64,000 bases of DNA, taken from assembly GCF_036417845.1 (NCBI RefSeq), contig NC_089978.1, positions 126,758,183 through 126,822,182 on the forward strand, in the 5' to 3' direction. Within the stretch, counting starts at the first letter, position 1; each line of letters begins with the position of its first letter. Made by a program: the position numbers and the translations under genes. Of this stretch, positions 19,368 through 63,660 are shown in pieces. The stretch comes from Apteryx mantelli (taxonomy: Eukaryota; Chordata; Aves; Apterygiformes; Apterygidae). The notes under the pieces were generated by a model. It made no database searches. It was not told the DNA's origin and saw nothing but the letters and a program-made list of their open reading frames with translations.

Positions 19368-42621
<23,254 letters not shown>

Positions 42622-42752
42622 TCTGGCTTCTCCGCGGTCCCACCGGTGGAGGCCGCCCGCCCGAGCCCGGCAACGGCCGCCGCCGCCCGTACGTGGCAGA
42701 GCAGCGAAGGGGCTGGAGCAACGGCTGCAACTGCCGGGCCTGCGCGAGCCGC

Positions 42753-42763
42753 CCGCATGCGCA
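42753..42763. promoter_or_regulatory. NRF1-type site
   Basis: CCGCATGCGCA matches the core of the NRF1 binding motif (YGCGCATGCGCR) with one weaker position. It lies in the CpG island, 32 bases from a perfect second copy. Confidence 0.6.
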
Positions 42764-42794
42764 CTCGAGGCCCCAGCCCGGCCGGCGCCGTAGG

Positions 42795-42804
42795 GCGCAT
42801 GCGC
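42795..42804. promoter_or_regulatory. NRF1 palindromic site GCGCATGCGC
   Basis: This is the perfect palindromic core of the NRF1 consensus. NRF1 commonly drives CpG-island promoters of widely expressed genes. Binding is inferred from the sequence only. Confidence 0.7.
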
Positions 42805-43010
42805 CGACCAGGGCAGTGGGGGCGGGAAGCCGCTTCCCTCCCCGCGCCGACGCGTCGTGGGGCGGGGGCGCGCGCGCAGCCGCACGCGCGGCGGGGCGGG
42901 GCTTTGGCGCCGCCAGGGACTGCGTGGCCGCGCGGGCGGCGGTCGTCGGGGCTGTGAGGGCGGGGGCGGCGCCGTGGCGGCGGGGATGCAGCCCGGCAGC
43001 CTACTCAGGC

Positions 43011-46000
43011 ACTTGCCCCGGCCCCTTGGGGTTGCTGCCTCACTCTTTTCTCCCAGCTAAAAAGGTTTTTGTTTGTTTGTTTTTAGCCAGTATTTACCAA
43101 ATGGACAGGTCTTGGGGCAAAACCTTTCAAAGTGTTGTCACTAAACAGCAAAATGCAGTCATCTGGCTGATGTTCATCGCTGGGGTAAAAACATACCTCT
43201 TCTCATGGCTGCTAGGGTGAGCTACGGGTCATACCGGCTGCAACAAAAATGGGGTGGTATGTCCAGCTCCTGCCGAAACGCAAGAGATGTGGCTCAAGCA
43301 GCATAAAATGATTTTTTTCAGACAGAGCGCAGTAACAGGACTGTTTGAAAATGCAAGCTTGTATCCTCCTAGACTGGTGGCACTGAGATGAAAAACCAGT
43401 CATTAAATTACACAATGCTTGTCATGCACAGCCACCCGCACAGAGAGAGCCTGTCTGCCTACTTCATCCACGAATAATCATGGCCCTGACATGAGTATTT
43501 ATTCATGTAGGTATTCTCTGCTATTCCCCCACCCTCCTGCCTTCTTTTAGGAGCTTGCCTACTTAGGAAGGAAAACCACAAATCTAAAAAATATACCTGA
43601 CTTCCTGAGTTTTCTCTGGTGAAGATGTGAGACTGGACTCCTCGGGTTCAAAAATCAAGCTTAAGGGTACTTCTCAAAGAACAGCCAGAATTGGATTTTC
43701 TGTTGTTCCAGGGCATTTGGGATTTCTACTGCCTTTCTTCATTTGTGGGTGCAAAGTTACACATGTTCGTACAAATGACAGAAATACCTATGCAGGTCTA
43801 AGTAAAGCATAACTGTAGTTATTTGTTTCCTGGTGTTAGAGGTCGGTTCCACTAAGAAAAAAGCCTCTGAGAAGACACCTTGTTGTTTAGTGGTCTGAAA
43901 AGCAAAGCTCACAAATTGCAATTTCTGATGGGGCAAGAACAAAAAGCTGTAAGAGTTTGATTTTGTAGTCTGCTAAGTCTCTGTCTAGCAGACTCTAATA
44001 ACAAGTGCAACTAGCAATAAGCAGACATTACTCACACAGAAATGGAAACAGAGGAGAAAAGAGTTGGATATGTTTTTAATTCTAAATATTTTTAGGAGGA
44101 GGAAGGGATCAGTTAAGGAGGCTTCCTTTGCTAAATGTTAGAAAATATTTAGAAATAATTTTGGCATTTCCAAAGGCAAAAAATAGATTATCTCATTGCT
44201 TCTAAAAGTGTAGGAAAGAGGTCTGGAGAACAGGACTTTTCCATCAGTTACACACGCAGGCTCTGCATCTCATATTTCATACCTTTGGACTGATGATTCA
44301 GTCCTTCTTCTTATTCAAGCAGTCCTTTATTCAAGCAGAACTTCCAATATGCTAACAAGAAGAAACTTCATGATCCTTAAAGTCCACATATCACAAAGAA
44401 TACCAAAGTTCACTGCATTATTAAGATCAATATATTCCACGCGTAGATAAGAACTGAACTATTGTTCTTATACTGCCAAGCATATAACCTGAAAAAGATT
44501 ATTTTGCTTTGTTCCCTTTTTGAAATTAGGATTCCTTAGATGCAAAAGCCCACAAAAATTGATATTTTCCATTTTCTTTGAAGGTGAAAATGTTTTCTTT
44601 TAGGTCAGACGTGCTCAGTGTTCACTTTAACAGAATTTTTTAACATCTCAAATACTTAGAGACAGGATGTTTAGTTTTATTAGTAAAAAGTCAATACTTT
44701 GCCAGTTCGATATTGTACAAATTCTCCTTGATTTTTTGCTTGATTTTTGGTCTATAAAGATAAGATATTGGTTTAAAAAAAGTCTGTGCTCAAAATTAGG
44801 CAGGAGGTGCTTTACACAATACTCCTTTCTTTGTGGAAAAAAAAATCAAACCTAGAAAATATTATCACTCCTTAAAGGAACCATCATCACAGTATCCAGC
44901 TGTCTTTTAAAATGAGATCAAATATCCTAAACCACACTATAGTTTCTAAAATACTCTTCTTCGATAAAATTAAAGGAATTGACAAAGGTAAATATTACAG
45001 ACCTAATTTACAAATAAAAAATGGATATTGCATGGAAACATAAACATCCTGTCCAAAAAAAAGTATGACTGAAAACATGCATCATAGCAAAATATGGGAA
45101 ATTACCTTTCCTGGACAATTTTTACTGACATTCTCTGCCATTATCTGAAGCAGTGGTGATGAGCTTCAGCCTTCTATCTGATATAACTGCTCTTTCTGGA
45201 GGCTCATTAATTCTAGAGAACATTTTCTTCTGCTGCATAGAGAATGCGTAGATTTCTAAGAAGTGGAAAATTTTTCAGGACCACTGAAACACTGCCATGA
45301 AGACATTCAGAAAGTCTCACAGTGCCCAGGGTATTCAGAGATTGTATCCCTAAATATTCAGCCATTACATTTGATCAAGTCCGTGACTTTATTTGGAGCA
45401 TCTTGCAAGTTTTCAAAATACACCACATTCATTTTCAGAAAAAAAAAAGACAAAAAAAAAAGAGGGAAATCTGACCATGCTTCTTAAAAACAGACTTTTG
45501 TTTAAACTCCAACATGATGTTCTCGTTTTATAAAAACTGGAGATGGCTAATCATACAAGTATATTTGTTCAGAGTGCAGAATGAAAATTGTTTTTAAAAT
45601 ATTACCTGTCTAAATTTCTTAGTCTTTTTTCTCGCACAGGAGAGAATGGGATGGGTCAATGTAATTATTCTCATTTTTGTTAGGCAGGAACCAACTACAG
45701 TGGATCTTAGTGCTTTGCTCAAAGACACAAAGCGAGAAGAGCTGCTTGCTCTTCACACACCACTTTGTGCTCAAGCCACCATACAACACTTCCTTTCATC
45801 AAGATACTCTGCTGTTTCTTCCTTATTCATCACTTCAACATCCAGAAACTCTTCTCCTGCTCCCTTTAACATTGCTTTCAACTTCTTCATGCTGTATTAT
45901 ATTAATAAATGATGGACTGAGAACAGGATTTTTAATATTTATTTATAGCCTAAGTTTAGAAACCAACGTCTAATGCCAAAGACAAGTGGCTCCTCTCCCT

Positions 46001-46847: not shown

Positions 46848-47071
46848 CTACCTGTGGTTAGATAAGGTAGACAAGGAAATATCTTCTGAAGAAGTTTCGG
46901 ATGGTCTGAAAGTTTCCTTTGCATGTTTTGCAAGTTGTGATTTTGAAACATAGTAAGTTTTTGAATGCAGGTACACTGGTATCTCTGACACTGAGAAAAA
47001 GGAAACACTTCAGAAACTTTTTTCTTGAAGACTGGCGATCTGAAAGTGTACAGAATACAAATCTGAAGTCC
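46848..47071 (-). pseudogene. ADGRG7: ADGRG7 terminal exon (end of TM7 and tail)
   Basis: The acceptor is ctccacag. It starts in frame as GLQICILYTFRSPVFKKKV, but the conserved-looking acidic tail SETSSEDISLSTLSN, ending at TAG 46850-46848, lies in a different frame. The 224-base length is not a multiple of three although the exon starts at phase 0, so at least one indel is likely. The site cannot be placed because the tail is poorly conserved. Confidence 0.72.
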
Positions 47072-48085
47072 CTGTGGAGTAAATGAAAGCCCAGAGTTAA
47101 TATTTTACTGATAAAACCAGAAGAGATTGGTCAGTATGATTTGACTTGAAAAATAGCTGCAACAATAGTTTTCCGTAACCACTGACAATGAAGTTAATAC
47201 CTTGAAATACACACAGTATTTTCAATGGGAAAATTATTCGATGGAACTATGCTGTAGTTGCATGACTTGCACGTTGCAATGGATTAGCTAGCATGTCTCA
47301 GAATGACATTATTGCCCTCTACTGAATAGGATGAATATAAGACCTGCCTGAGTATGCCATGAGCAGGAAATGAAGTGGTGCCTTATCAGCACTTCAAGCA
47401 GACACACACAGAGGAAAAGTGGGACTTCTGTATTTCCATACCACTTCTTCTAAATTCCCATCTCAAGCATTAATCATGAGCATCCTGGGTAAAAAAGAAA
47501 GGGCTCATGGTTTTAAATAGATGGGTCTGTGTTCTGTCTCTGTTCATGATTTCAGGCTGAAATCATGGAGTATAATCCATATACCCAATAGTATAGTGAT
47601 AACCACTTTGGGACTTTTTGCACAGAGAGTTTTCAGATCTAATCCCCATTGGTGCTAAGGGCCTCAGTTTTCAGTAAATCAAGCAGATAGTAAACAGTTT
47701 AAGATCTGGGCACAAGGGAAGTTTTTCTCAAACCATGAAGCTCTTGCTTCCCTGAGACTCTTTCCCACAGCTGATGGAGAAGTTTTTTCCTGATACTCAC
47801 TCTGAATATCACTTTACATATCATTTGGTATAGGAGAAGCCACCCAGACAAAAAGATCTTTTCAATGGTGACCTTGAAATAAAATACCGCAGTGATTTGC
47901 ACTATGAGAAATGTTTTATGAGTGACAAACAAGAATGATAGCATCCCTTTCTGAACAAAAATTCCAGATCTCTGTAACCCTTTTCAAACAAATCCCCAGG
48001 CTATACCAAGCTATAGGACAAATAAATCGGACAGCTTTTTTCCCCAGTATCTCAATTATCAGTCTCAGAATTATTAAATATTTAC

Positions 48086-48242
48086 CTGGGTAACATTCAA
48101 AATGCAGAACACATAGCTGAAAATGAGACTTGTTTCCTCATGATTTATTAGCATCATGTAGCCTACTGTCCAGGTGATTCCGAGCACTACAACTATAGAG
48201 ATAGTGCCAAGCATCTTTTTCATGAATGAATCCTTTTTATTC
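48086..48242 (-). pseudogene. ADGRG7: ADGRG7 exon j (TM6-TM7)
   Basis: The acceptor is gctctctag and the donor CCAG|gtaaat. The intact frame reads KKMLGTISIVVVLGITWTVG (TM6), then LIFSYVFCILNVTQ (TM7 start). Confidence 0.9.
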
Positions 48243-49264
48243 CTAGAGAGCAAACAAACAAAAAAATCTTTCTCCGTACCACCTGTTACCTTATTGAGCT
48301 TTAAACATGTTATTTTATTTATTAAAGGCTATATCCCAAATAGTTATTTCTCAGGTGAGTTGAGAACATATGCCTTCCTACATTTGTTTGAATCCTCATC
48401 CATAAAAGAAATCCTGAAAGAGAAATCTGTGCAAGCTTATCTGAATGATCTGTGTTTAGAATATGTATCTGGAACATATCTTACTTTAACAACTTCAAAA
48501 AGTAAGATTTGCCAAGGAAACAGGAAGCAGTAAGAATGAATGTGTTAGCTATTAGAAGTTTTTAGAAAATGAAGAAACTTAATCCAAATGTCCTCAATTT
48601 TCAGTATAAGAATAAGCTGCCAATGAAGTTTGGACATCCAATTTCTCCCAGGTCTGAGAGGAGTCAGAGATGAGGTATTCTGGTTTGCTCCAAGCCTGAA
48701 AATTATATATAAAAGAAATGAAAAAATGATACAAAGTTTTGCTGAACATATCAGCTCTATGAGTTAAAAAAATTTAAAAAATTCCCTTTTAAATTAATAC
48801 AAATATCACTGCAGAATCTGTGACACTTAGCTTGTGACAATACATTGAGTGTATATGTAAAATTGAGCAAGTAAACCTACTTTAAATCTTCTAGAGAACT
48901 GGCCTGATATTCAGATGTCTGAGAATCCATAATTCTCATTTGGCTGGACCTGGTTCTGCTCTCACTTACATTGATTTAAATTGAGGATAACCTTTATTGA
49001 AGTCAAGTTGAGTAACACTCCAACCCCCTCAAAAAAGAAAAAGGCAGCAAAAGCCTGCAATATGTTCAATGAAATGTAATTGTACAAAGAACACAATCTG
49101 ACCCACTGGAGTAGTGGAATTAATTTTCTGAATGCTTTAAAAATACATTTCTTTAGAACAAAAGATTTCATCAAAAATCTGAGTTCCTGGCAAGAATGTC
49201 TAAGCTCATGACAAGAGAGTGAAGAATTATTCTGAAAACTCTGAGGAGCTCTATGCCAGCTCAC

Positions 49265-49426
49265 CTTGTCAAATTCTTGTTATCCCTCCATATCACTGAG
49301 ACTGTGATGTTGATGAAGATGATAAAGTTAAACAGGAGTATGAGTGCTACTGGCAGTAGGAATGACCACAACATAGGCTTTTCTGTGCTAAAATCCTGAT
49401 TTTCAAACAGTGCTGCAAGCCAGCAA
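49265..49426 (-). pseudogene. ADGRG7: ADGRG7 exon i (TM5)
   Basis: The acceptor is atttaaag and the donor CAAG|gtgagc. The intact frame starts with the ECL2 motif CWLAALFENQDFSTEKP and continues into TM5 (MLWSFLLPVALILLFNFIIF). Confidence 0.9.
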
Positions 49427-50406
49427 CTTTAAATATAAAGAGAGGCTATTTCAAAAGATTCATTAGGCACATTTTTCAGAATACAAAACCAAAACAAAAT
49501 AATTTATCACTTCCCATTCTGAAGGGCCTCACAGGGCTTTCTAGACCTTGTTAGCCCATCTCCGAAAGGCAGCCATTCCCTGAGAGCTGAGGGCATTTGA
49601 TCATGCCTTTCTCTGCAGAGTGCAAAGTGATTTTATCAGACAAACTGCATAGGGAAATGTAAGGTGGAATATAACTATCCAAACAGGTATCTGGCCAGCA
49701 TGTGCAAGTTTATCTTTAGTGTATATATGATAATAGAGCTAAAGAATAATAAGGGAAGACCTAATGGACAAAGGTTGAAACAAAAATGGGAAAAAATTTA
49801 GGCAGATGGGATTACCCTGAAATAATCCTTTCTTCTTTTTTTTGTGGATAAATAATCTCAGAAAGAGGTCAACACCCCCTAAATGACCATCACGAGATGA
49901 CCACCACGGGTAAAGGGGCTTGTGTTTACATCTATTCTGAAAGAAGTCTACCTCTGTTCTATATTGTCCACTGTCACCAAGGTACGTTGCAAGCATAATA
50001 GCCAGCTTTGGGATGCTGGCACTCAGATGAGGGCAGATGCCAAAAGCATACAGCAATTAGGGATATCAGTTATGTTGGCCAGAAAGCTTTAAGGTAAATG
50101 GGATGATTAAGCTTATGTACTGAAATACAGTTATGCACTTAAATGAATGTCTTGAATTTCAGCTAGACCAAGAGCACTCCCAATCTCCATTTAAAGCCAC
50201 ATGGGAGCTTACAGGAGCATTCAAGGCAGATGTGTGATTTAGTATCCAGAATCCTTAGTGAGGAAAAACTGCATTTTCTTATAGTGGAAGTTTAGCTTGA
50301 GTGAAGAGTTTTCTTTAAGTACGGGTAATAAATCTAGAATGGCATTAATAATAAGCCAGCATAAAAGGTATGGGATAGCAAGTATCTTAATAATTCATTT
50401 ACTTAC

Positions 50407-50488
50407 AATTCTTCCTGTCAGTAGTTTAATGCTTTTCCTTCTCTATAAGTAGTTCCAAGTGTTATTGCAATGACTATAGCGGGGATTC
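50407..50488 (-). pseudogene. ADGRG7: ADGRG7 exon h (TM4) with TGA
   Basis: The acceptor is ttaattag and the donor AATT|gtaagt. It reads GIPAIVIAITLGTTYREGKA, then LNY, then TGA at 50420-50418, then QEE. Family members have arginine at this position as I recall, so CGA to TGA by CpG decay is the likely change (inference). Confidence 0.87.
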
Positions 50489-52055
50489 CTAATTAATAGG
50501 AGAGACATCAGCAGTTTATTGTTCACTTGCATAGATGTACCTTATCCCCCCTCTACAGAAATAGCTACTTGCCTCCTAAAATCCATAGATTTTAAGACCT
50601 GTGCTTCATCTGCCTTGCACTAAGCTAAGTGGGTATCCATAGCCTACAGGAAAAGGCAGGACTGGGGGCTGTGAGCAGTATTTTTCTGAGAACAGCTCAT
50701 GTCCATACCTTGTTCGTTTCTTGCCTTCAGAGAGCTTCAACACAGCTTCCAGAGATGACTCTTCTGGTAACAGAACCAGCTCTTTTCTGTGCTGTAGCTG
50801 ACTTATCACAGCCGTGCAAGCCTACCCCCTTGTCTGCAGGGGAAACTAATTTAAGATAATTCTGCTCCAAGCACTGTTATATTTCATACGAATTTGATGC
50901 AGAGAGTACTTTTTTTTTCTCAGAGAAATGAAGTTACTTCCTTGATCCCTTTGCATCACTTTGTGTTTTCCGGCTCCCCTGACTACCTGTTAGAAGTTTA
51001 AGCTGCACGTCTCATGGGAAGGAGGCCCCACACAAGCTTTTGTCCAGGAGATAAACATGCTCCTTAAGGGCTGTTCCTGTTCTTTCCCTCCTTCAGCCTT
51101 ACTACAGATCTTCCAGACTGCCCAGTATTTACTCTACTCTCGAACTCTGAAATGCAGTGAATCAGAATCATGCTATTTTGCACATGTGTAATGAATCATA
51201 AGACACAGTGGAGAACCTAATGCTGGGTTGTCATGCAATATACACCACAGAGCAGAGTGTCATTTAGCCAGGCAGCTTTCACTGGGCATTTTCTGGCTTG
51301 TGCGTGCAGTCTGAAGTCTAAAAGCTTTAGCGGAATTGCCTCTATCCCCACCCAAATGCAAGACATAATAATAAATTAATTGGAATCTAAAACTGTTTAG
51401 TAGATGCCATCAGAATCAATATACCACAAAAGTTGAATACATAGTGGGCCAAAGGCAGATATTCCTGTATACTGTATTAGAATAGTGTCTTGAAGGAAGC
51501 TGAGATTTACCTTACTTAGTGTCTGTGTCTGCATTCTTCAGTCCTCCAAGTAGTTCCCCTTCAGCTTGCAATGTAGCTGCTAATTGCTATAAAGTCTTAA
51601 GGATGTGCTCATTGCTTATTAATAAATAATGTAACAAATAATGTAAGTCAGTTCTGCTTCTGGATGCACACAAGGCTCTGGCTGAGATCAAAAGGGCCAG
51701 AGAATAATTTTACTTCCCATATACAATCACTGTATCTGAAAGATTTTTTCCTTCAGTTGACAGAAACAGATTGTTGAATGTCTTGGTTACTGAGAAATTT
51801 CTGCTGCATGCAACAGACCTACGCTGCTGAGCTGATGAGCAAGCTATTGATTTCCGTGCCACATCGGGACAATGACAACAAATTCAGATTATACCAGTAG
51901 TGTAAGCAGTAACTGGAGATTACTTATTAAACCACAGTGGCTAACTCGGGACACTGACTGTAATTGCTGTCTACTGGTCTAATACTTTTACAACCCTCCC
52001 TGAACGTACTGATACTTTGGCATGAGATTGCTATATATATGACTTTAAATCTTAC

Positions 52056-52418
52056 CCCATCCAATTACTGACATGGTTACAACGAAGCGTCCAGGAAGCG
52101 GCTTCATGACTAAGCAGCAGTAAGTACAATTGTGCAGAACGGAGTGCTGTCCACATAAATGTTGCCAACAAAAAGTAATGCAGTAGGACTGCCACAACTG
52201 TACACCAAGGGTCTGCAGGAGGATTTACCAAATCAGATGTGAGTAAGGTATTATTGGTGGTGTCATAAGTCTGATATTGCTGGTCATATCTGGTGGTATC
52301 ACTGCTGTGATTCCTGGCATTTCAGTTCTCAATTCCGGAGATGAAGATGATGTTAAAAATTAGCATAGAGAAGCAGAGACTCACTAACATCCACGTTATT
52401 GAGGACTTTCGAGTTTTC
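52056..52418 (-). pseudogene. ADGRG7: ADGRG7 exon g (TM2-TM3) with TGA and frameshift
   Basis: The acceptor is actaacag and the donor TGGG|gtaaga. TM2 reads SSITWMLVSLCFSMLIFNII, then FISGIEN, followed by TGA at 52324-52322. The frame continues to TM3: WCTVVAVLLHYFLL, then WTALRSAQLYLLLL, and then loses phase. The conserved MKPLPGRFVVTMSVIGWG appears two bases out of step. The exon is 363 bases; 365 would satisfy the flanking phases, agreeing with a 2-base loss near 52106-52114. Confidence 0.9.
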
Positions 52419-55400
52419 CTGTTAGTAGAAATACATTTGGAGAAAAAGTAAAGCAAAATAAGAAAAGTTATAAAATACTTCCTCATTTTCTGAAGCTTAC
52501 TTGCATATAGAGGAAGCAAGCTAGGGTATGCAATCTTTAATACAGAGAAAAAACAAAGCTGTAACTTTTTGCAGAGTTCTACGATGTTGTTACTCTTGCA
52601 CAACTTACCAAATTTGTCAGTAGTGTCTGATTCAAGTACTGCAGAGAATACTCAGCACCTTTGAGGACTGTGCCCTTTCCAACAGCATTTGGGATGCATT
52701 TTCTTTTTTCCTCTCTGCAGTTTTTAGAATCATTCTCTTCAGTGTTGAGAGGTGAAATAACATAAGAGAAGTATTTCTAAACACTCTTCAAGGTACAAGA
52801 GAATAACCCTACACTTTCAAATTCTATCTTATAAATGCATTTGAAAGGTAGAGTCTGGAAGCTCCTACAAGTTTAAATATGTATACATTGACCTTGAGGG
52901 AATTACTTCAAATCTACATAAGTGCAAGCAAGATGAGAAGCTTGCATTCATCTATGATAGCTACGACTCTGTTGGCATGACTTTGCTCCTTGTTCAAATG
53001 AGCATCTGAGAGTCACATGGCACTTAATTATGGGCATGTCTATCAAGGAAGTTTGCTGTAATCATATTTGAATGAAGTAATTTGCAATAAAATGGTAACA
53101 CAAGCAATGTAGATAAACATTTACATTTAATCATGATGCTTTGAAATCACCTGTTATGAACAGGCATTTTATATATGCCATTTCATTGTTCAAAGGCAAT
53201 GAAGTATAGGACTGAGTATAGAAACTATCAAATAGGGAACAGAAAGCAGAGCAATATTTAAATAGAATAGCAAAAGGAGAACATGAAGAGTGATATACAT
53301 GCTTCTATGTGAATGCTAAAAGTCCAAGAAATAAGACAGAGAACTGGAATGGCTATCCTTAAACGAAGACATCAACATAACAGGCATATTGGTAATTGGC
53401 TAGAAGAAAGATAACTGATGGGGCATTGTAATACTAGGGTACAGAGCATAGAGGAAAAAAAAAGTAGATCAGACTGATGGCAGAGTACTCTTATACGTTA
53501 AAAAAGCCTAGTGTCAGTGTAATGAACTAACCATCTCATCAAGTAGCATGGACCAACACAGGAATAATGTAGCACTGGACCTATATTATCACCTCCCTGA
53601 CCAAGGTAGTAACACAGACTGAGACATACCAAGAGAGAGCAGAGCAGCAGTGGGGAAAATACAACAGTAACGGGAGACTGCTGTTGCCCTCCTGTAGACT
53701 GGGCAAATGTCCCACTAGAACATAACTCAGAAGTGACATCGTTAGACACGATCATGGGAGCCCACGGTAAAAGGATCAGCTCTTGATATGATCCACAGTA
53801 GCACACAGTGCCTGCTTTATGATCTTGTAGCTGGTGAGCTGCCCTGCAGTAAAAGCCGTAACATATCTAGATTGACCATTCCTGTAGGAAAAACAGAAAC
53901 CAAAACATCCACCACAGTTATGCTCACCTTGACTAAAGGGGAACTACGTATAACAAGGCAGATCATCAAACGAAGTTAAAAGGGGCAGCCAAGAGAAATA
54001 AACCCTTACAGGCAGCATGGAGACTACTTAATGATACTATGTTGGAAGCCTGTAGCAGACAAATACCAGGAAATATCTGAGAAAAGACAAGAGGAAGCTG
54101 ACATACCTAAGCAGAAGGAAGATTAGCAGATGCAAGTAAGTATTGTCCAGAAAACTGAAGTGATGTGCTAATGAAGAAAATCAAAACCTACACCCTGGCA
54201 AATTAGATGTAAAAATATAAAAAGAGTTTGAGGAAAAATGAGCAAAAGGCATTAAATCTAATAATAAATCTTTCTTGAAACATACCAGAACCAAGAGGCC
54301 TCCCAGAGACTCTGTACAGCCAATAGATGATTAGAGTATAAAAGAAGTCCTCAGATGGGGAAAGGATCTCAAAGGAGAACTTTGTGAGTGCTTCATCAGT
54401 AGATCTGTCTTAAATTGCAGTAGCTTTGGAAGAGTTTATGGAATGAAGAGGCAAAAAGAATAGCAACAAGCCACAAGGAACAAACAGCACTCATCCAGGA
54501 GTCTTGATGGAGCTTAAGGATGAAATAACTGAGCTAGTAACAGTGCTGTGTAACCTCTCATGTAAAATCAATGTGGTACATGAGGACTGGAGGGTGTTAA
54601 ATGTCATGTTGCTTTTAGAGTTCCTGGCCTGTAAATCTGACATCTTTACTGAAAAAAATAGCAGAAACTATACAAATTTTAAAAAGGCTTGCTCACTAGG
54701 TGGACAAATATGATGTACTTGAAGAGAGTGTGGCTTTTGTAAAAGAAGGTCCTTCCTCACCAAACTATTGGAGTTTTCTGAAAAATTCAGCAAGCATGTG
54801 GCTAAGGCTCACACAGTCAGCACAGGCCTGGTTTCCCCAAAGCTTTTTCAGAAAGGTCTCTCACCAAAGACTTTTACAGAAGGTCATAGCCATGGCAAAA
54901 AGGGGAAGTCCTTGCATGGATAAACTGTTGCTTAAACAATATGAAACAGAGGCTGGGAGCTAAGCAGTCATTTCTGGTGAGCTCACTAATGCAATTCTGC
55001 AGAGACCTGTGGTAGGACCCTCACTGTTCAAAGTTTTCATTATAAAGCTGGATATGAAGTAAGCAACAAGGCAAAGTTTGCTGCTGATATTAAGTCATGC
55101 AGGTGGTACAGCCAAGGGCAGCTGTGAAGAATTGCAGAAAGCTGTTATGAGACTGAATGGCTGGGCACTAAGATGCAATGAAATTCATATAGAGAAATGT
55201 AAAATGAATCACGTGGGGAAAAAAAACTTCTGATCTGACATATAAAAGCACAGGCTTGTTCCATTCAGGAGTGAAATCTTGGGATGATACTGGATAATTT
55301 CACAAAATACACCCACTCAGTGCACAGGACTGGTCAAAAAAAGCAGATCAAATGTTAAAAATGATTAGGAAGAGGCAGAAAAAGCCAAACAGAAAACATC

Positions 55401-57293
55401 CTTATGCCACTTACACATTCATAGCAGAGCTTAAAAAATTTAAGAAAAGAACAAGAGAAAAGAGACAGCTGTGGGGAGATGTGATACAGGTCAGCAAAGT
55501 CTGAAATAGCATGGAGGGCATGGCTACAGATCAGCTGATCAGTCTCTTTTGATACAAGAACTGGGATGCTTTGAGTGAAGCTAATAGGAGCCAGTTTCAA
55601 ACTACACAAAATAGGCAGTTCTTTTTGCACTATAGAACTCCTTGCCAAAAAAAGCAGATGCTGAAAGTTTATATGGGCTCAAAGTGGGATTGGACAAATT
55701 CACAGAAGAAAAATCCTTTGCAACTTTCTAAATAAAAGGAATCACAGCCTATAGAGAAAGTCCCTGAACTGCACAAGCTTGGAGATTTGGGAGAATGCTG
55801 GGAAGAAATAGCATATATATTTTCCCTGTTCTTATGCTCTGTCACAGCCCTGAGCAAATCTCCCTCCAAAAAGGGGTTTGACTGCCGGTGCCAAAAGCCA
55901 GCTCTGATATGGCACAACTGGATAACCTTGGGTCAGACTCTCATAAAAACAGCTAAGTTATGAGCAAGAGCTGCAAGAAGTCCCATGTGGAGCCTCCCCT
56001 CTGCTCAGGAGCTGCATTAAAGCCCAGGTGCTTGTCCCTGCTCCTCACTTGAGCTATGTTACTGCATATGGCCCTGACTTACTTTCTCTAGGCATCTCCT
56101 TTTACTATAAACTGCTCATTGTACTGGCTAGGTAGGTCTTCAGTCTGACCCAGCACAGCTGCTCTTATGTTCCTATGCACTCCAGAGTCATCCTTTTGCT
56201 TTGCGCTTTTCTGGAATTTCTGCTGGAAAGCAGGGGGATTGTGGAGTTGAACATACAAGCTCCAGTGGAGTCCACTGCCCAGCCTGAAAGTGCTATCGGG
56301 GAGAAAACATTAGCAGATATTGTTATTCACAGAGTGGTGAAGATAAAGAGGCTGTGGTAAGCGTATTTATGAGCCATGCATTATCTTCCCAAGCAAGGAA
56401 TAAAGTCACCTGGGGAATAGGACAGCGATGCTGACCGAGTGTTTCCATCACAGTTTCATTCACTGAATCACCACTTCTTGCCTCAAATTCACAGGCCCGT
56501 GAGGAACCCACCTAGAGCTCACCTTGACTGACAGCAACAAAACGCCTACATGAGAGCACCCCTTCATTTCCAGAGGCATCTGAGCATTGATCTCTGCAAG
56601 TTTGCCGCCAGTCAGGAGCTAATCACTCCGGGACTGGTAGACTAGCCTCCAGGGCTGTAGTCATGGTAGTGCGTTTTGCTATCAATTTAGGCTATTCTTC
56701 ATTTTCCTGATCGTAAGACTGGGCTGTGCATCAAAAGCTAAATAGACACGTTCAGCTGAATGATGAGAAATACGTGCTTCACAGGAGGCTTCAGCATTCA
56801 TCATCAGGAAGGAATATTTTTTCATGGGGTACTTTTGATATCCTGTTGTGCTTTGCACAACACAAGCCAGAGCGATGGAAAGACTTTTCTTGTCAGTGGT
56901 CATGCCCAGCTTTTCCTACGAAAGGCTTGGCCTTTTACCAAACTGGGCTCTTAGGTATCCTGTTACATCACCTCTTTTCAAATCTAATATTTTTTAGTAT
57001 GGATTTCTCAAATAATAATCATATGTATAAATATCCTCATGTTAAAAGAGGGAAAGAGTAACAGAAAAGTTAAAATCACATCCAGGTGAGTGGCATGGCT
57101 GAGACATTGCTTAACTTTGCTTTAACCAGTAAGCCACACTTACTAACAAACTACACTACATGATTAGCTCATTTTTTTGTATTACTTGCTAATCGATAAT
57201 ATTGCTACTTTCTCTGTTTTCCCCTCAAACTATATACAGAGAAAGATATTTTAACAGCATGAAATATTTATAGTTTTACATCTTCACTCTTAC
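52419..57293 (-). other. ADGRG7: ADGRG7 intron f-g
   Basis: Intron of about 4.9 kb, more than half of it the LINE at 53295-56178. The remaining parts are AT-rich and hold nothing recognised. Confidence 0.7.
53295..56178 (+). mobile_element. Decayed CR1/L3-type LINE, about 2.9 kb, endonuclease to 3' end
   Basis: Successive landmarks of an old amniote CR1-group LINE appear in order on the + strand. They are an endonuclease start (gtgaatgctaaaagtcc, ctgatggggcattgtaatac), a later endonuclease motif (LYYHLPDQGSNTD near 53580-53620), reverse-transcriptase remnants (AKFAADIK near 55074-55096, where the family has KFADDTKL), an RT C-terminal remnant (gaactccttgccaaaa near 55636), and a 3' tail (gtctgacccagcacagctgc, then tcttatgttcctatg to 56178). 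Frameshifts and stops are frequent throughout; no frame longer than about 90 codons remains. It lies in the ADGRG7 intron between exons f and g, antisense to that gene. The family name is inferred from memory of turtle, crocodile and bird copies. Confidence 0.75.
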
Positions 57294-57406
57294 CTAGTGA
57301 AGATCTGAAACAAAATGGTAATGACCAGACCAGCAATGGACAATCCAATACCAATGTAAGAGATATACTCCAAAGGTTTTGCATAATTATATTTGATCTG
57401 GAAGGC
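57294..57406 (-). pseudogene. ADGRG7: ADGRG7 exon f (TM1)
   Basis: The acceptor is tttctag and the donor CTAG|gtaaga. The intact frame reads AFQIKYNYAKPLEYISYIGI, then GLSIAGLVITILFQIFTR: a clear first transmembrane helix directly after the GPS and tethered-agonist region. Confidence 0.9.
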
Positions 57407-58749
57407 CTAGAAAACAATTTGTATCAGTTATAAGATGAGCAGACATAATTTTCCTTCTACAATTGTGTGTTTCTAGTTGCACGTTGAAATGAAAATATTT
57501 TTGTAAAGTTATGACTGTTGCTTGCCATTGCCAAAATTTTCAGATAACACAGAAATATTCTGGACAATCAAGGCTAGAGAAGCTCCAAGAGAGACTTAAC
57601 AATGTGAATCAACTATTTAGCAAAATAGCATATTAAATTATTCATAAACAAATGCAAGGTGACACAGATTGGAAAGAGTAGCTTTAACTTTTTGTACTGA
57701 CATGCACTCTGAATTTTGACTAGTAAGGACTAGTTGTAAAGAATTACTAATCAAAATCAGTCCTTGTTTGTACAGTGGCAATAAAGCAGCAAACAAAATG
57801 TAAATGTATTCAGTGAAACAGAAAAAACTGTTGTCTTTGTGTAGATGGATACGAATCTTCTCTTAGAAGATCATCTTGTCATCTTGTTTGAAAATGTTAT
57901 GCAAATATAGTCATCTTATTCAAAAATGTTATTCATAACATAAAAGGAAGTCTAGAAATAAGTAAATATTAGAAATATGGAAATGCTGATCTGTGAACAC
58001 AGATTAAAAAGAAATTTTGAAATCCTGGCGCTACTGAAGTCAATGGCCAATATGCAATTTTAGCCAGGGAAGGTTTCATGTAGAGAAGTTGAAACAAATA
58101 CATATATTGCCTCTCTGTCAGAGAGGCAGTCATTCCTAAGTAGTCTTGCACAAGAGGAAAATATGTAAAACTAAATGATAGCAGACTTAATATTTACAAA
58201 GTAATTACTTTTTATAAACATATAAGTAAAGGAAATAGTTAGTGCTGAGTGCTTTGAGTTGTTTACTCAGCATAAGGAAGTGCCACACAGACAGCTGAGC
58301 TAACACAGGCACCAGCCTACTTTATTGTTGGTCTCAGGGCACTTTCGGGTTTAGACACACATTTATTTAACAACCAGCTGCAGCAATTTAGGTGCAGTGC
58401 CAGAGGCTACCACAGCTGAGCAAGGGGAATAAATTGTGCCAGCACTTCCCTGCTGCTGGGGTGCAAAGTTGGGTGGGTTTAGCTAGAATTTATGTCAGAG
58501 GAAACCAGAACTTCCAGCAGCCTGGGGAGCTCCCACATGTCCCAGTTTGCCAACTCTGCCACAGGTCGTCTTAAAGGCCATGGGGGAACACAGGGAAGTG
58601 CCATAGGGGTCATCTTCAATGCCTGTGTCTTCTAGCTCGGTGAATGCACACGTAAGCCCTTATATTGACATTCTGGTCTTATAAGTCAAAGAACAATTGG
58701 AAAAAAATAAACCCAGCCTCATCCTGTTCAAGAAGGAGCGATGCTCTAC

Positions 58750-58903
58750 CATCAGGACAGCAAAATTAGTAGTGTGGTTACACTTGCATCTCAAGAATTG
58801 GTCTCTTTCTTTTGTACAGCCTGCGGTGCTCCAGTCATTAGTGGTATAGTCCCAAAATCTGTGATCATGCATGATCATGCAGCTGGAGCTCTGATGCGTT
58901 GTA
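58750..58903 (-). pseudogene. ADGRG7: ADGRG7 exon e (GPS) with frameshift
   Basis: The acceptor is gtccacag and the donor GATG|gtagag. The frame starts YNASELQLHDHA and hits TGA at 58867-58865. The conserved continuation FWDYTTNDWSTAGC, then RCKCNHTTNFAVLM, is in another frame. The exon is 154 bases where a multiple of three is required, consistent with four extra bases at the palindrome 58862-58877. The GPS W, C and HT|T residues are all still present. Confidence 0.9.
58862..58877. repeat. 16-bp perfect palindrome at the frameshift
   Basis: TGATCATGCATGATCA is its own reverse complement and coincides with the four surplus bases in ADGRG7 exon e. It may mark a slippage or hairpin-templated insertion. 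Confidence 0.9.
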
Positions 58904-60364
58904 CTGTGGACTGGGATTACAAGGAGAAAAGATGGTTGAAGAAGCATAAAAAGATATGCAGCAGTAAACAATGTGTGCTGACAAGTATCCCCTGAAAGGG
59001 GAGCTGAACCTACTGAGGAGTTTACAGCAATTCCAGTAAACTTTATGAAGAATATTAATAATGGCATAATTTGGCTTTGTGAGCTTACATTGTAGGTCCT
59101 TTCTCAATCAAGACTGCCAACAAAATTTTCAATTTCTTTGAATTACTCAGATAATTATGGTTTAGAAGTACGTCCCCACGGCACTCAACAAGTGCCAAAT
59201 AAATTCTGCATTAGCCAAACAACAGCTTTCAGATACTAGTAACATTAAATTACTGCCAACTGGAGCTGAATCCACACTGGAACTGGGAAGCAAACAATTG
59301 TAAAATCCACGGCCAAGTCTGTGAACCATCCAGTCCCCTCCTCCAACACAGCTTTGCTAGCACAGTCGTATACCAAGATGCATGCTGTATTTTTCAATTA
59401 ATATACTTCAGTGGGCAACCGCAATTAGAACTGTGTTTTAATAAGCAATGAGCACCTTGAGATGTACACATAAATAGTGAAAGCCACATTATCTGCAGTA
59501 CTAGGTAGTTCAGTTAAAAATGACAGCTAAAGGTAGGAATAAAAAAAAATTAATTATAGGCTTATTTCAGTGACAGCCATACAAATTGTACTTGTTTCTC
59601 AGATCACTTAATTGCATATGTCCATCAGGATGATTATTGATCTGTCGCAAGCATGTATTTGGGCCTAAAAATCTTTGTCAAGTGAGTTAAACATTGTAAG
59701 AAGAAGTCAAATATTGTTTTCTGGAGAAACATGCTAAAAAATCAGTATATCTCATCTAAAAATTCAGCTATTAGAGGCAAGTGAGGACTCACATAGAACA
59801 TTTCCTGCAAAAAGCAGTAACATCTGCAATAAATTCCTGGGGGAGGAAGCTAAAGTAAAATGCACAATGATTTTAAAGAAAGAGGGAGTTAAGAGATACT
59901 ATGAAAAATTAACGCTCCCCAGGTTGGTAAGCTTGTTGGGCTCTGCCATTCATGTTATCTTTTGCTTGTTTCCCAAAGCGTTGAGAGTCTCCTGAAAAGA
60001 AAAATTGTCTTCCAGGTACCTGTCTCTTTTCATTCTTGATTTTGGACAAATCTGCTCTTGCATAGCTATCACTTTTTATGAAATACAGTTTTGCTTGCAA
60101 AAGTCCTAGCTTAGTAATACAGAAGCAGTAATATCAGATGTTAAATACACAAGTTGAAAAGCATTTTCTATGCAACATTATCTAAATACGCTTCCTGTTT
60201 CACTTACAAGGTCATGTATGCATCCCTCAAGCTCCCTGAGCAGCTCACTGCCAGAAATCAAGGGGGCATACCAAAGAAACCTCTCTGCTTGAGTCTCTTT
60301 CTACAAATATTGAAGACAGGCAGTAGGGCTAGGTCAACCTCTGGTCATTCTTGTGAGAACTTAC

Positions 60365-60516
60365 CTTCGGGCTGAAGGCTAGTTCAACACCACCGGTTCT
60401 TCCACCATCAATGTTGCCAGAGATGATTTGTTTAGAAAAACTACTGTGACTCCTATAAATCCTCTACTGGAAGAATTTGTCATTTTGATACAGGACAAAA
60501 CCAGCTCTTCCCTTAT
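60365..60516 (-). pseudogene. ADGRG7: ADGRG7 exon d with in-frame TAG
   Basis: The acceptor is ttcatcag and the donor GAAG|gtaagt. The frame opens NKGRAGFVLYQNDKFFQ, meets TAG at 60466-60464, then continues in the same frame as RIYRSHSSFSKQIISGNIDG and GGVELAFSPK. The family has a coding residue, serine in human as I recall it, at the stop. The exon is 152 bases and phases agree on both sides, so the stop is a substitution and not an exon-boundary error. Confidence 0.88.
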
Positions 60517-62428
60517 CTGATGAACCTTCGCTAGGCAAACAGAAAAGTAGGTACAGATGTCAGAGAAGCTGGTGCCTTCCAAGCAGCCTACATTATCCTG
60601 TTTCACACATGCAGGATTTACAGCAGATTTTTGTTTAGGTGTTTCTTCAGAGTCCATTTAAGATCTAGAGAAGAACTTCTTTTCCCATGAATCTCAAGAG
60701 ATTCATCTTCATTTTTTGCTGAGGTGGAGTGTTAAAATAATCATTTCCCTTCTCTTAATTCCTGAAGAAAAAGCACTGGTAGTGAGAGGAAAATAATATC
60801 CTATATCCAGACATGTACACATGCTCCAAAGGTCCAGGATTTTAATAACACCAAAGAAGAAAAAGTAACAACAGGGCCAAGTTACTAGAAACTCAGAAGT
60901 CCAAAGATGCTGGCTGAGCTCCTCCCTTTGGACTCCACTGTTGGACTCTGTTTCTTTTGTGGCAATCTTCTACTAAGTTAAAGAATTTTTTTTTTTTTTT
61001 AAGTGATTTAAATCACTAGTCTTAATTGTGACTTAAAGGAGGAAACAAAAATCCTATTTTAAATAACTAATTTTATTCTTGGTTTTACTTTGTTACTTTT
61101 TGTTTTCATCAAGAGAGGTTGAATACAGTAAATTTATACCTGCAACATGTCAGTTGTGCATTTAATTTTAAATACATCTATTTTTTGAAAAGATAAACTG
61201 TCTCTCTTGAGGGAAGAGCTATGACATAGAGGCTTTACGATAAAGAGTATAATTACATGATCACACTGTTTTTCCACAGGATTGTCATCTGAAACAGTCA
61301 ACAGAATGAACAGTAATCAGTTACGCCATCAGTAATGATGGCTTAGTGCTATTATAGTGTTATACGGAGATGTTAAGGACAAGTCCGCTCATTTCAGGTA
61401 CCCAGCTGAAATTCCTACAGTTTTTAATGTGCCATCGAAATGCACATGATCAAAGCTCCCTGGGACTGTAGTTGCAGCTGTGCATAATTAGCACTTTTGC
61501 AAATCAGACACAAGGGACAAAACTGGACATTCAGGAAACAAAGACCGTATAACTAGCAACCACGAATTAAACGTTTGGTGAGTCTCCATGGGTTTGAAAG
61601 AGCTTTCAAAGAGACAAAGAAACAGAGCCAGATCAGTGTCTAACAAAAAGGCACATCCAATCCAAAATTCAGGTCCCTGCTCCATAACAGAAGGCTTCAC
61701 TTCAGAGTTTCATAAAATAAGCTTGCAAGCGTTTCTTTAGCATTGAGAAATTTGGCCTTAAACTTTCAAAAATAATTTACTTAAAGAAAAGTAAGGATAA
61801 TTTCAGCCCTCACAGTTAAAGTGTGTCAAAGTTGTAAGCCAGCAAAAGCAGAGTCTTAAAAGATGTGTCAGACAATTTTAATAACAGTTAGTGCTACCAA
61901 CACCGTGTGTAACAGCTACACAGGCATTTCTACAGCTCCTGGCGGTTTAGTGATACCTCCCGTGGGAGAGACCCAAAGCTGTGCGGGTGACTGGGTGTCT
62001 AACTGGTCAGCCTCACGGCAGCAGGCACAGCACAGCTACCGTCACAGTCTACTGACAACAAAAAGTAGTGGCAATTGGAGTTGAAATGGTTGCTGTCCTT
62101 CGATTTCAGGGAAGATGTGTATGCAGCAGCTTTTGATCTTGATGTCCACAAAGGCATGGCTCAAGATTCATTACATTCTGAATTTTAAAAAACAAAACAA
62201 ATGAAAAATTCTCAAACGCCAAAGGCTTTCTGGACATGTTACACATATATAAGCATTAATCTATAAGTAAGATCATCCAGCTCATTTGATATGTACATTT
62301 CTTGCACCATAGTATGACACCAGTATGCATAAAAAACAACATGTAATTGTTTATATTGGCTGAGAATTTTTTTTTAGACAATATTCATTCAAAATCTTCC
62401 CAGGTCCAGTTTTCAGTAAAGAATTTAC
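60517..62428 (-). other. ADGRG7: ADGRG7 intron c-d
   Basis: AT-rich intron of 1.9 kb with a T-run near 60988-61001. No exon or repeat is recognised. Confidence 0.65.
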
Positions 62429-62542
62429 TGTTATTTATAATGTTGAGCAGTATCTGAACTTCTGTACTGAGATCTCCAATAAGTCCAGGGACATTTTCCT
62501 GTACTTCTAGTTTTGTTGACTGAAAATATCCCAATCCCGTAT
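62429..62542 (-). pseudogene. ADGRG7: ADGRG7 exon c (GAIN)
   Basis: The acceptor is tcctgtag and the donor AACA|gtaaat. The frame reads TGLGYFQSTKLEVQENVPGL, then STEVQILLNIINN. The phase fits both neighbours and there is no break. The donor is weaker than the others. Confidence 0.8.
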
Positions 62543-62626
62543 CTACAGGAATTATCACTGGATACATTAGAATTTATGGTATGTACCACTTTGTCCACAG
62601 AAATCCAGCAAGATACATGGGCTTAC

Positions 62627-62745
62627 CTCTCTGTGCAGAAAACAGAATTGTAGATGACTTTAATTTCAGTGGGACTGACTGAATTGCAGTGTTGGACTGG
62701 GTGATGTTGCTGGTCAAAGAAAATTTTTCCATTGTTCTTGTGAGG
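62627..62745 (-). pseudogene. ADGRG7: ADGRG7 exon b (GAIN)
   Basis: The acceptor is aatgcag and the donor AGAG|gtaagc. The intact frame contains LTRTMEKFSLTSNITQSNTA, then IQSVPLKLKSS and ILFSAQR. Confidence 0.88.
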
Positions 62746-62896
62746 CTGCATTGAAATAATGAGTAAGATAAAACTTTCTTTACCACTTTCTGTTAATATA
62801 TAGCTACAGGTTCAGTTTCTGTGCTTCCTCTCTGATTTTGCTCTCCAGCATGTGAGGCAGAGTGCAGAAACTGTGTGAGCTTGCTCTAGCTGCACA

Positions 62897-62959
62897 TGAG
62901 GTCACCAGAAATCTTATTTCTGGTGTCACTTCTGAGGTCACCAGAAATCTTATTTTTGG
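62897..62959 (+). repeat. Local tandem duplication, 27-bp unit at 36-bp spacing
   Basis: The unit at 62897-62923 recurs at 62933-62959 with one mismatch (tgaggtcaccagaaatctta, then tttctgg versus tttttgg). It lies in the ADGRG7 intron between exons a and b. Confidence 0.9.
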
Positions 62960-63568
62960 CCTCAGGAGGCACAGGATTTGGCCTAAACTGCAGCTAGGGC
63001 AGGAGTACGGTGAAATCTAGCATATTGTCAAATTGTAATAGCTCACTAGGTAAGTGGGAAATTTCTTCTAACAAATACATGTAAATATACAGGATTCTTC
63101 ATGGAGAGAGTATGTTATAGCTTTCTCCTTCCACACACTGGATCCTGTAAAATTACTTCTGACTCATCTGAAAAGAAATGAAAATGCTGTAAGTGTTTAT
63201 AAATACTGCAGTGTGTTCTCCTAGCATCTCAGCTGGCAGGTAGGACCACTCTGTAAACTATAACATGTCCACAGGCAGTGGCATGCTACTTAAATGATTT
63301 CACCAAACTGTTGGAGCCAGCTGATGACCAAATAGGGACCTAACTCCAGAAGCCCCTACTCCTCATTCCCTATCCTCCTCTTTTTTCCAAAGCAGAAAAG
63401 TCCAGCCAAAATTTTTTCCCTGGATGTATTTCTACTGAATCAACCAAACTGCATGCTGGAGATGGATACCAAAAACATTTTGGCTCATTTGTGAACCACC
63501 TCTATATTGAAATGGAAGGTCAAATGCAGTTTACTACGTTTAATAAAAAGAGCAAAATCTAATGTCAC

Positions 63569-63660
63569 CTTGCTGTATCATCGACAAGATTATTGTGGTT
63601 AAATTCTGTTTCATTGGCGTCCAAGAGTTGACTGACTGTAGCCATTACTGCCACAGATGC
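63569..63660 (-). pseudogene. ADGRG7: ADGRG7 exon a (GAIN)
   Basis: The acceptor is gtctcag and the donor CAAG|gtgaca. The open frame reads ASVAVMATVSQLLDANETEF, then NHNNLVDDTA, the helical part of the GAIN domain around the TVSQLLDA motif. It is intact. Exons 5' of this one are not found up to position 64000. Confidence 0.88.

Follow-up and report, generated by a model that had tools for sequence, protein, structure and literature searches.

ADGRG7 (GPR128) lies on the minus strand of contig C1 (NC_089978.1) of the bird Apteryx mantelli, where its 16 exons span 30.6 kb (C1:126805030-126835670). The window, which is the whole 64,000-nucleotide stretch of DNA that was analyzed (C1:126758183-126822182), contains exons 6-16 of the gene, from position 63660 to position 46848. 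The minus strand was read, exons were mapped by script, and flanks from the same contig were added, with coordinates above 64000 running on from the window. Genome searches cover the assembly of 1.504 Gb in 408 contigs, none of which matches a mitochondrial 16S primer pattern. ADGRG7 is disabled by three in-frame stop codons, by three or more small changes that break the frame and by one 4.5-kb insertion of a CR1-type long interspersed nuclear element (LINE). We propose that the locus is very probably the original gene, decayed in place as a unitary pseudogene.

The exon structure of ADGRG7 in the window is still legible. The acceptors of exons 6-16 are all AG (11 of 11) and the donors all GT (10 of 10, the last exon having no donor), and the phases assigned from the recognized frames are concordant at all ten junctions, in agreement with the sequence-only reading of this DNA, which had described eleven GT-AG exons with matching phases. 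Exon length fits these phases in eight of the 11 exons; the misfits are exons 10, 12 and 16. Exon 6 (63569-63660; AG/GT sites, phase 0-2) belongs to GAIN subdomain A and matches PF22259, exon 7 (62627-62745) covers parts of GAIN A and B and matches both PF22259 and PF22261, and exon 8 (62429-62542) belongs to GAIN subdomain B. These three exons are intact. Exon 9 (60365-60525) continues subdomain B and contains an in-frame stop, so marked in its PF22261 match as a single TAG. Exon 10 (58750-58903) encodes the end of GAIN B and the GPS and is frameshifted, with a length of 154 nt (1 mod 3) where 0 is needed. The first transmembrane helix (TM1) is encoded by exon 11 (57294-57406), which is intact by the exon map and matches 7tm_2. 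TM2 and TM3 share exon 12 (52056-52418), which carries a stop and a frameshift and whose 363 nt are 0 mod 3 where 2 is needed. The exon map and protein matches place TM4 and the second extracellular loop in exon 13 (50407-50488), which has an in-frame stop, TM5 in exon 14 (49265-49426) and TM6 and TM7 in exon 15 (48086-48242), the latter two exons being intact. Exon 16 (46848-47071) encodes the end of TM7 and the C-terminal tail; its frame is broken at least once, and its 224 nt are 2 mod 3 where 0 is needed.

Three other readings of these exons were rejected. Exon 8 had been dismissed as a chance frame, and the Pfam GAIN B model runs through it. Exon 9 had been read by eye with two frameshifts, but its alternative frame matches the GPR128 GAIN B model and contains just one TAG. 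The GPS exon had been started at 58858 after a missing small exon, and its true start is 58903, the gap being a 10-bp duplication. A soft spot is found at exon 9, where the acceptor that agrees with the phases (cgaag) sits 5 bases below a stronger-looking cctag whose use would add a frame error.

What identifies this remnant as ADGRG7? The identification is based on the GPR128-specific Pfam models for the N-terminal domain, GAIN A and GAIN B, all of which match. Pfam was run at curated cut-offs on a read-through of the gene with X placed at the lesions. Once exon 8 and the exons upstream of the window are included, PF22257 (72.6 bits), PF22259 (98.6 bits) and PF22261 (83.0 bits) all pass, and the GAIN A and GAIN B models are covered at positions 1-101 of 101 and 2-108 of 119, respectively. 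PF01825 (GPS) is also above its cut-off at positions 5-45 of 45, although the first GPS cysteine of human ADGRG7 finds no partner in the alignment, a gap that falls in or close to the 10-bp duplication. PF00002 (7tm_2) reaches 139.9 bits at positions 3-249 of 250, above cut-off. The GAIN, GPS and seven-helix sequence that had been recognized by eye is thus confirmed by profile. Genome-wide, two matches to PF22259 and a single match to PF22261 were found, all at this locus, and a PF00002 match with one TGA inside falls on exon 12 (C1:126810291-126810590). A score of 139.9 bits along 247 positions of 7tm_2, together with the sole matches of GPR128-specific models in 1.5 Gb, excludes a chance resemblance. 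The EGF-like segment of exon 2 matches a teneurin EGF model below the cut-off only, pieces of the C-terminal tail have no Pfam match, and no PDB sequence named ADGRG7 is among the best 60 of 67 matched. The ectodomain of the human ADGRG7 sequence used for comparison scores 181 bits for GAIN B, 139 for GPR128_N and 134 for GAIN A, and this sequence is therefore adequate as a guide.

The three in-frame stops of the sequence-only reading recur in their sequence context as a TAG in exon 9 (60464-60466), a TGA after TM2 in exon 12 (52322-52324) and a TGA after TM4 in exon 13 (50418-50420), the last standing where the human protein has an arginine (CGA to TGA type). The same reading had counted at least two and probably three frameshifts, and frame breaks are found in exons 10, 12 and 16. 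In exon 10, ten bases are perfectly duplicated in tandem (58862-58881), and the resulting +1 shift falls immediately ahead of the GPS core; removal of the duplication leaves 144 nt, which fits the phases. The unit that was duplicated is TGATCATGCA. It overlaps with its reverse complement, and this palindromic character may have favored slippage. In exon 12, the frame changes after TM3 within about 52108-52125 (net +1 or -2): frame 1 ends in ...LYLLLLS, and frame 2 picks up at MKPLPGRFVVTMSVIGW. In exon 16, a frameshift-aware alignment to the human tail took two shifts under one penalty and three under another. The position of this break is ambiguous and the net length misfit alone is firm, and it is counted as one lesion, possibly more.

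The first five exons lie beyond the window. Exon 1 (77488-77377) opens with an ATG and encodes, by eye, a hydrophobic anchor. The exon map places exon 2, with the EGF-like segment, at 74015-73908, exon 3 at 71650-71519 and exon 4 at 71208-71099; the exon 4 acceptor (tagag) has another AG just above it and is a further soft spot. Exons 1-4 are phase-consistent. Exon 5 is split into two parts (68866-68748 and 64219-64183) by 4,528 bp of inserted DNA (C1:126822402-126826929), which start 220 bases past the end of the window and run antisense to ADGRG7. The 4-bp target repeat TGAA stands at both borders, and joining the flanks across it restores a perfect 156-nt in-frame exon 5, VETGNFSNVSAIASNTQILTSMPDQLTTQSISTAANIAVKILKKPNISEDSQ. 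On its own strand, the insert has two open reading frames (ORFs), which from their likely starts are 352 and 977 codons long. Its 3' end reads TCACAGAATC in antisense, a candidate octamer-like end, and the insert is probably a full-length CR1 LINE. Because this 4.5-kb element interrupts exon 5, the loss of ADGRG7 is firmer than the sequence-only reading knew. On a first look, the genome contains 3,592 candidate relatives of the insert. Forty of these were scored, and the long matches in this set are 93-97% identical; the CR1 family has therefore been recently active in this genome. Two of the CR1 copies, at C8:291421-293431 and C8:304642-306652, lie 13 kb apart and do not differ in length, in score or in their identity to the query; this pair may represent a segmental duplication.

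ADGRG7 has no intact second copy in this assembly by protein, DNA or two GPR128-specific model searches. The ADGRG7 read-through has 20 genome matches, of which ten, at no less than 72% identity, all fall on this locus and ten are paralogues at 26-40% identity, and a 5,573-bp DNA query from the 3' part of the gene matches only itself. A genome search for an intact copy, which had been proposed as a check, thus finds none. Since its introns are present, the locus is not a processed copy; the earlier claim that the original gene was lost, rather than a processed or duplicated one, holds on both grounds.

Splicing would not provide an escape from the lesions, as judged from the exon map and the stop positions. 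Skipping exon 5 would preserve the frame (156 nt, phase 0-0). Skipping exon 9 breaks the frame (phases 1-0), and skipping exon 10 removes the GPS. Exon 12 holds TM2 and TM3, and exon 13 holds TM4. Skipping either drops helices, and no lesion-free splice path would therefore keep all seven. Transcripts of that kind, named in the sequence-only reading as evidence that would speak against its claim, would have no path through this gene.

The neighboring genes set ADGRG7 in its genomic place. Upstream, on the same strand, is a DUF716 gene (C1:126846568-126849108), which by its position is taken to be TMEM45A; its profile match is marked '1 TAA', and by eye its frame is open from the splice acceptor onward. 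Downstream, again on the same strand, are the intact coding exons of TFG (19371-37382, minus strand), found by tblastn with a human TFG sequence in seven blocks (residues 1-400), with stops only where block 1 overruns its exon edge. TFG provides both a syntenic anchor and a local control for assembly quality. The order matches the human order TMEM45A-ADGRG7-TFG, in line with the earlier statement that ADGRG7 sits in its ancestral place next to TFG. The position of the remnant between a TMEM45A-like gene and TFG indicates that it is very probably a unitary pseudogene.

The CR1 element helps to order the decay. The insert was compared with eight other copies chosen from the 57 matches listed (40 of the 3,592 candidates scored), and private change was counted only in columns with a base in five or more of the other copies and no disagreement among them. 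Of 1,799 such columns, 24 show a private change in the insert (1.33%), and the copies differ pairwise by 3.2-3.7%. Within the CR1 ORFs, 13 of the 15 private changes are nonsynonymous, much as expected after a neutral landing. The gene carries six small lesions, whereas the CR1 ORFs, the longer target at 3,993 bp, carry none (P = 0.0023-0.0025 on one clock), and most lesions therefore probably predate the insertion. Thus, the decay of ADGRG7 probably began before CR1 landed. The six lesions correspond to an estimated drift of about 1.6-3.4% (95% limits 0.6-7.3%) at assumed indel-to-substitution ratios of 0.15-0.05. Avian substitution rates are 1-2e-9 per site per year. From these values, point estimates for the decay of the gene come to some 8-34 million years (limits 3-73). 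The age of the CR1 insertion is at most about 7-13 million years, and both datings are crude.

These data suggest a history in which constraint on the ADGRG7 receptor would have been lost in this lineage, small lesions would then have accrued by neutral mutation, and a young CR1 element would later have inserted into an already dead gene. Any transcript would now yield at most an N-terminal fragment with the anchor helix, the EGF-like segment, the GPR128 N-domain and part of GAIN, without the GPS and the seven helices. Altered gut physiology or diet as the cause of the lost constraint can only be guessed at.

Could ADGRG7 be intact and the lesions be errors of assembly or sequencing? They are read from the assembly alone, and a run of six A bases lies near the frame break of exon 16. 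However, the lesions include three stops in otherwise open frames, a 10-bp duplication and a 4,528-bp CR1 element with a target repeat, and none of these is a homopolymer slip. Furthermore, the TFG coding exons in the same window are free of lesions, the eight other ADGRG7 exons there have phase-fitting lengths, and both CR1 ORFs are open; such errors are scarcely credible as an explanation. We give as little credence to a dead duplicate with an intact ADGRG7 elsewhere. Parts of an assembly of 408 contigs may be missing, but the locus keeps its introns and its ancestral place beside TFG, and the protein, DNA and model searches of the genome reveal no further copy. A loss that is polymorphic or very recent, with a working allele in some individuals, would be consistent with the fairly young CR1 element (at most 1.33% private change) and with the single haplotype seen. 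Six further independent lesions on the same haplotype, probably older than CR1 by the comparison above, make it extremely unlikely.

The first half of the gene raises another possibility, namely that exons 1-4 and part of exon 5 encode a useful short product, a membrane-anchored fragment with the EGF-like segment and GPR128_N, and that the locus is not fully dead. The ATG of exon 1 and the phase consistency of exons 1-4 are kept, and exons 1-8 contain no small lesion against six in exons 9-16. This skew is weak, however, since it rests on six events, and the short frame would continue into antisense CR1 sequence with the GPS and all helices lost; a locus that is still useful in this way is very unlikely. 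In a related history, ADGRG7, having lost its GPS and seven helices, would have been pared to a short membrane-anchored ectodomain with a binding or decoy role, kept for a time or still, before CR1 cut exon 5. If so, the lesion-free first half is not chance, and a signaling receptor was reduced to a fragment as its sole product. We see only a slim chance of this history and retain decay of the whole gene in place as our interpretation.

Several points weigh against this interpretation or loosen its details. The lesions come from one assembly and one haplotype, which bears on fixation and expression. The exon 16 break falls in a poorly conserved tail. The skew of the six small lesions to exons 9-16 has a P of about 0.035 by length, with the cut point between exons 8 and 9 chosen without correction, and it could hint at a longer retention of the N-terminal part. 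Private change is highest in the ADGRG7 insert among the nine CR1 copies (1.33% vs 0.22-1.30%), and the insert is thus not the youngest. In addition, at 1.33% private change and the assumed rates, the CR1 ORFs would be expected to hold about 4-9 lesions, whereas none is observed. This shortfall indicates that part of the private change precedes the insertion or that the indel rates were set too high; the ages are accordingly loose.

Two of the sources compared here are Wittlake et al. 2021 (PMC8584163) and Galbraith et al. 2021 (PMC8665684). ADGRG7 is reported to be missing in some birds and amphibians and in all reptiles investigated (PMC8584163), and an intact reptile reference, which the sequence-only reading had proposed for alignment, may therefore not exist. 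The present locus concerns the same gene and gives the same verdict for part of the birds. In that survey, however, orthologues are lacking and assembly gaps remain possible for some other missing members, whereas here a decayed gene, its lesions and its neighbors can be read. The absence of ADGRG7 in this assembly is a decay in place and not a deletion or an assembly gap. The available portion of PMC8584163 does not name an ADGRG7 pseudogene, and no decayed bird ADGRG7 was found described in the ADGRG7/GPR128 bird and pseudogene literature at the level of titles and abstract openings among the papers listed. Adhesion G-protein-coupled receptor genes are repeatedly lost as pseudogenes in mammals, although the cases of ADGRE4 and ADGRD2 concern other family members (PMC8584163). 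STK33 in neognaths, a different gene, is likewise an original gene decayed to a unitary pseudogene, but its loss is dated to about 100 million years ago (PMC4509753), and the ADGRG7 loss looks far younger. Full-length intact CR1 LINEs with an open endonuclease-reverse transcriptase (EN-RT) ORF are described in birds (PMC8665684), and the insert would be of this kind; it differs in that it splits a coding exon of a receptor gene that is dead. The loss thus looks like one expected in kind, with absence in some birds already published; what looks new is the CR1 marker, together with remains that can still be read.

Missing bird genes are often suspected to be assembly gaps, and the readable remains show a true loss of ADGRG7 in at least one lineage. 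The locus illustrates one way in which ADGRG7 can disappear from a bird, and it is otherwise an ordinary gene loss. ADGRG7 is poorly understood, and a natural loss amounts to an experiment on its function at no cost. In the mouse, deletion of ADGRG7 reduces weight gain and raises gut contraction frequency (PMC6361214), and in chicken liver, ADGRG7 is among the annotated genes upregulated by an oregano diet (PMC7915382). Because it is either present or absent, the CR1 insertion offers a clean marker by which the loss could be ordered in related lineages.

Two minor observations concern TFG. The PB1 model failed to detect this gene, probably because an intron splits the domain. The interval 42001-44000 of the window has a GC content of 56%, compared with 34-44% in the other 2-kb steps; it is likely a CpG island upstream of the first TFG coding exon and probably marks the TFG promoter.

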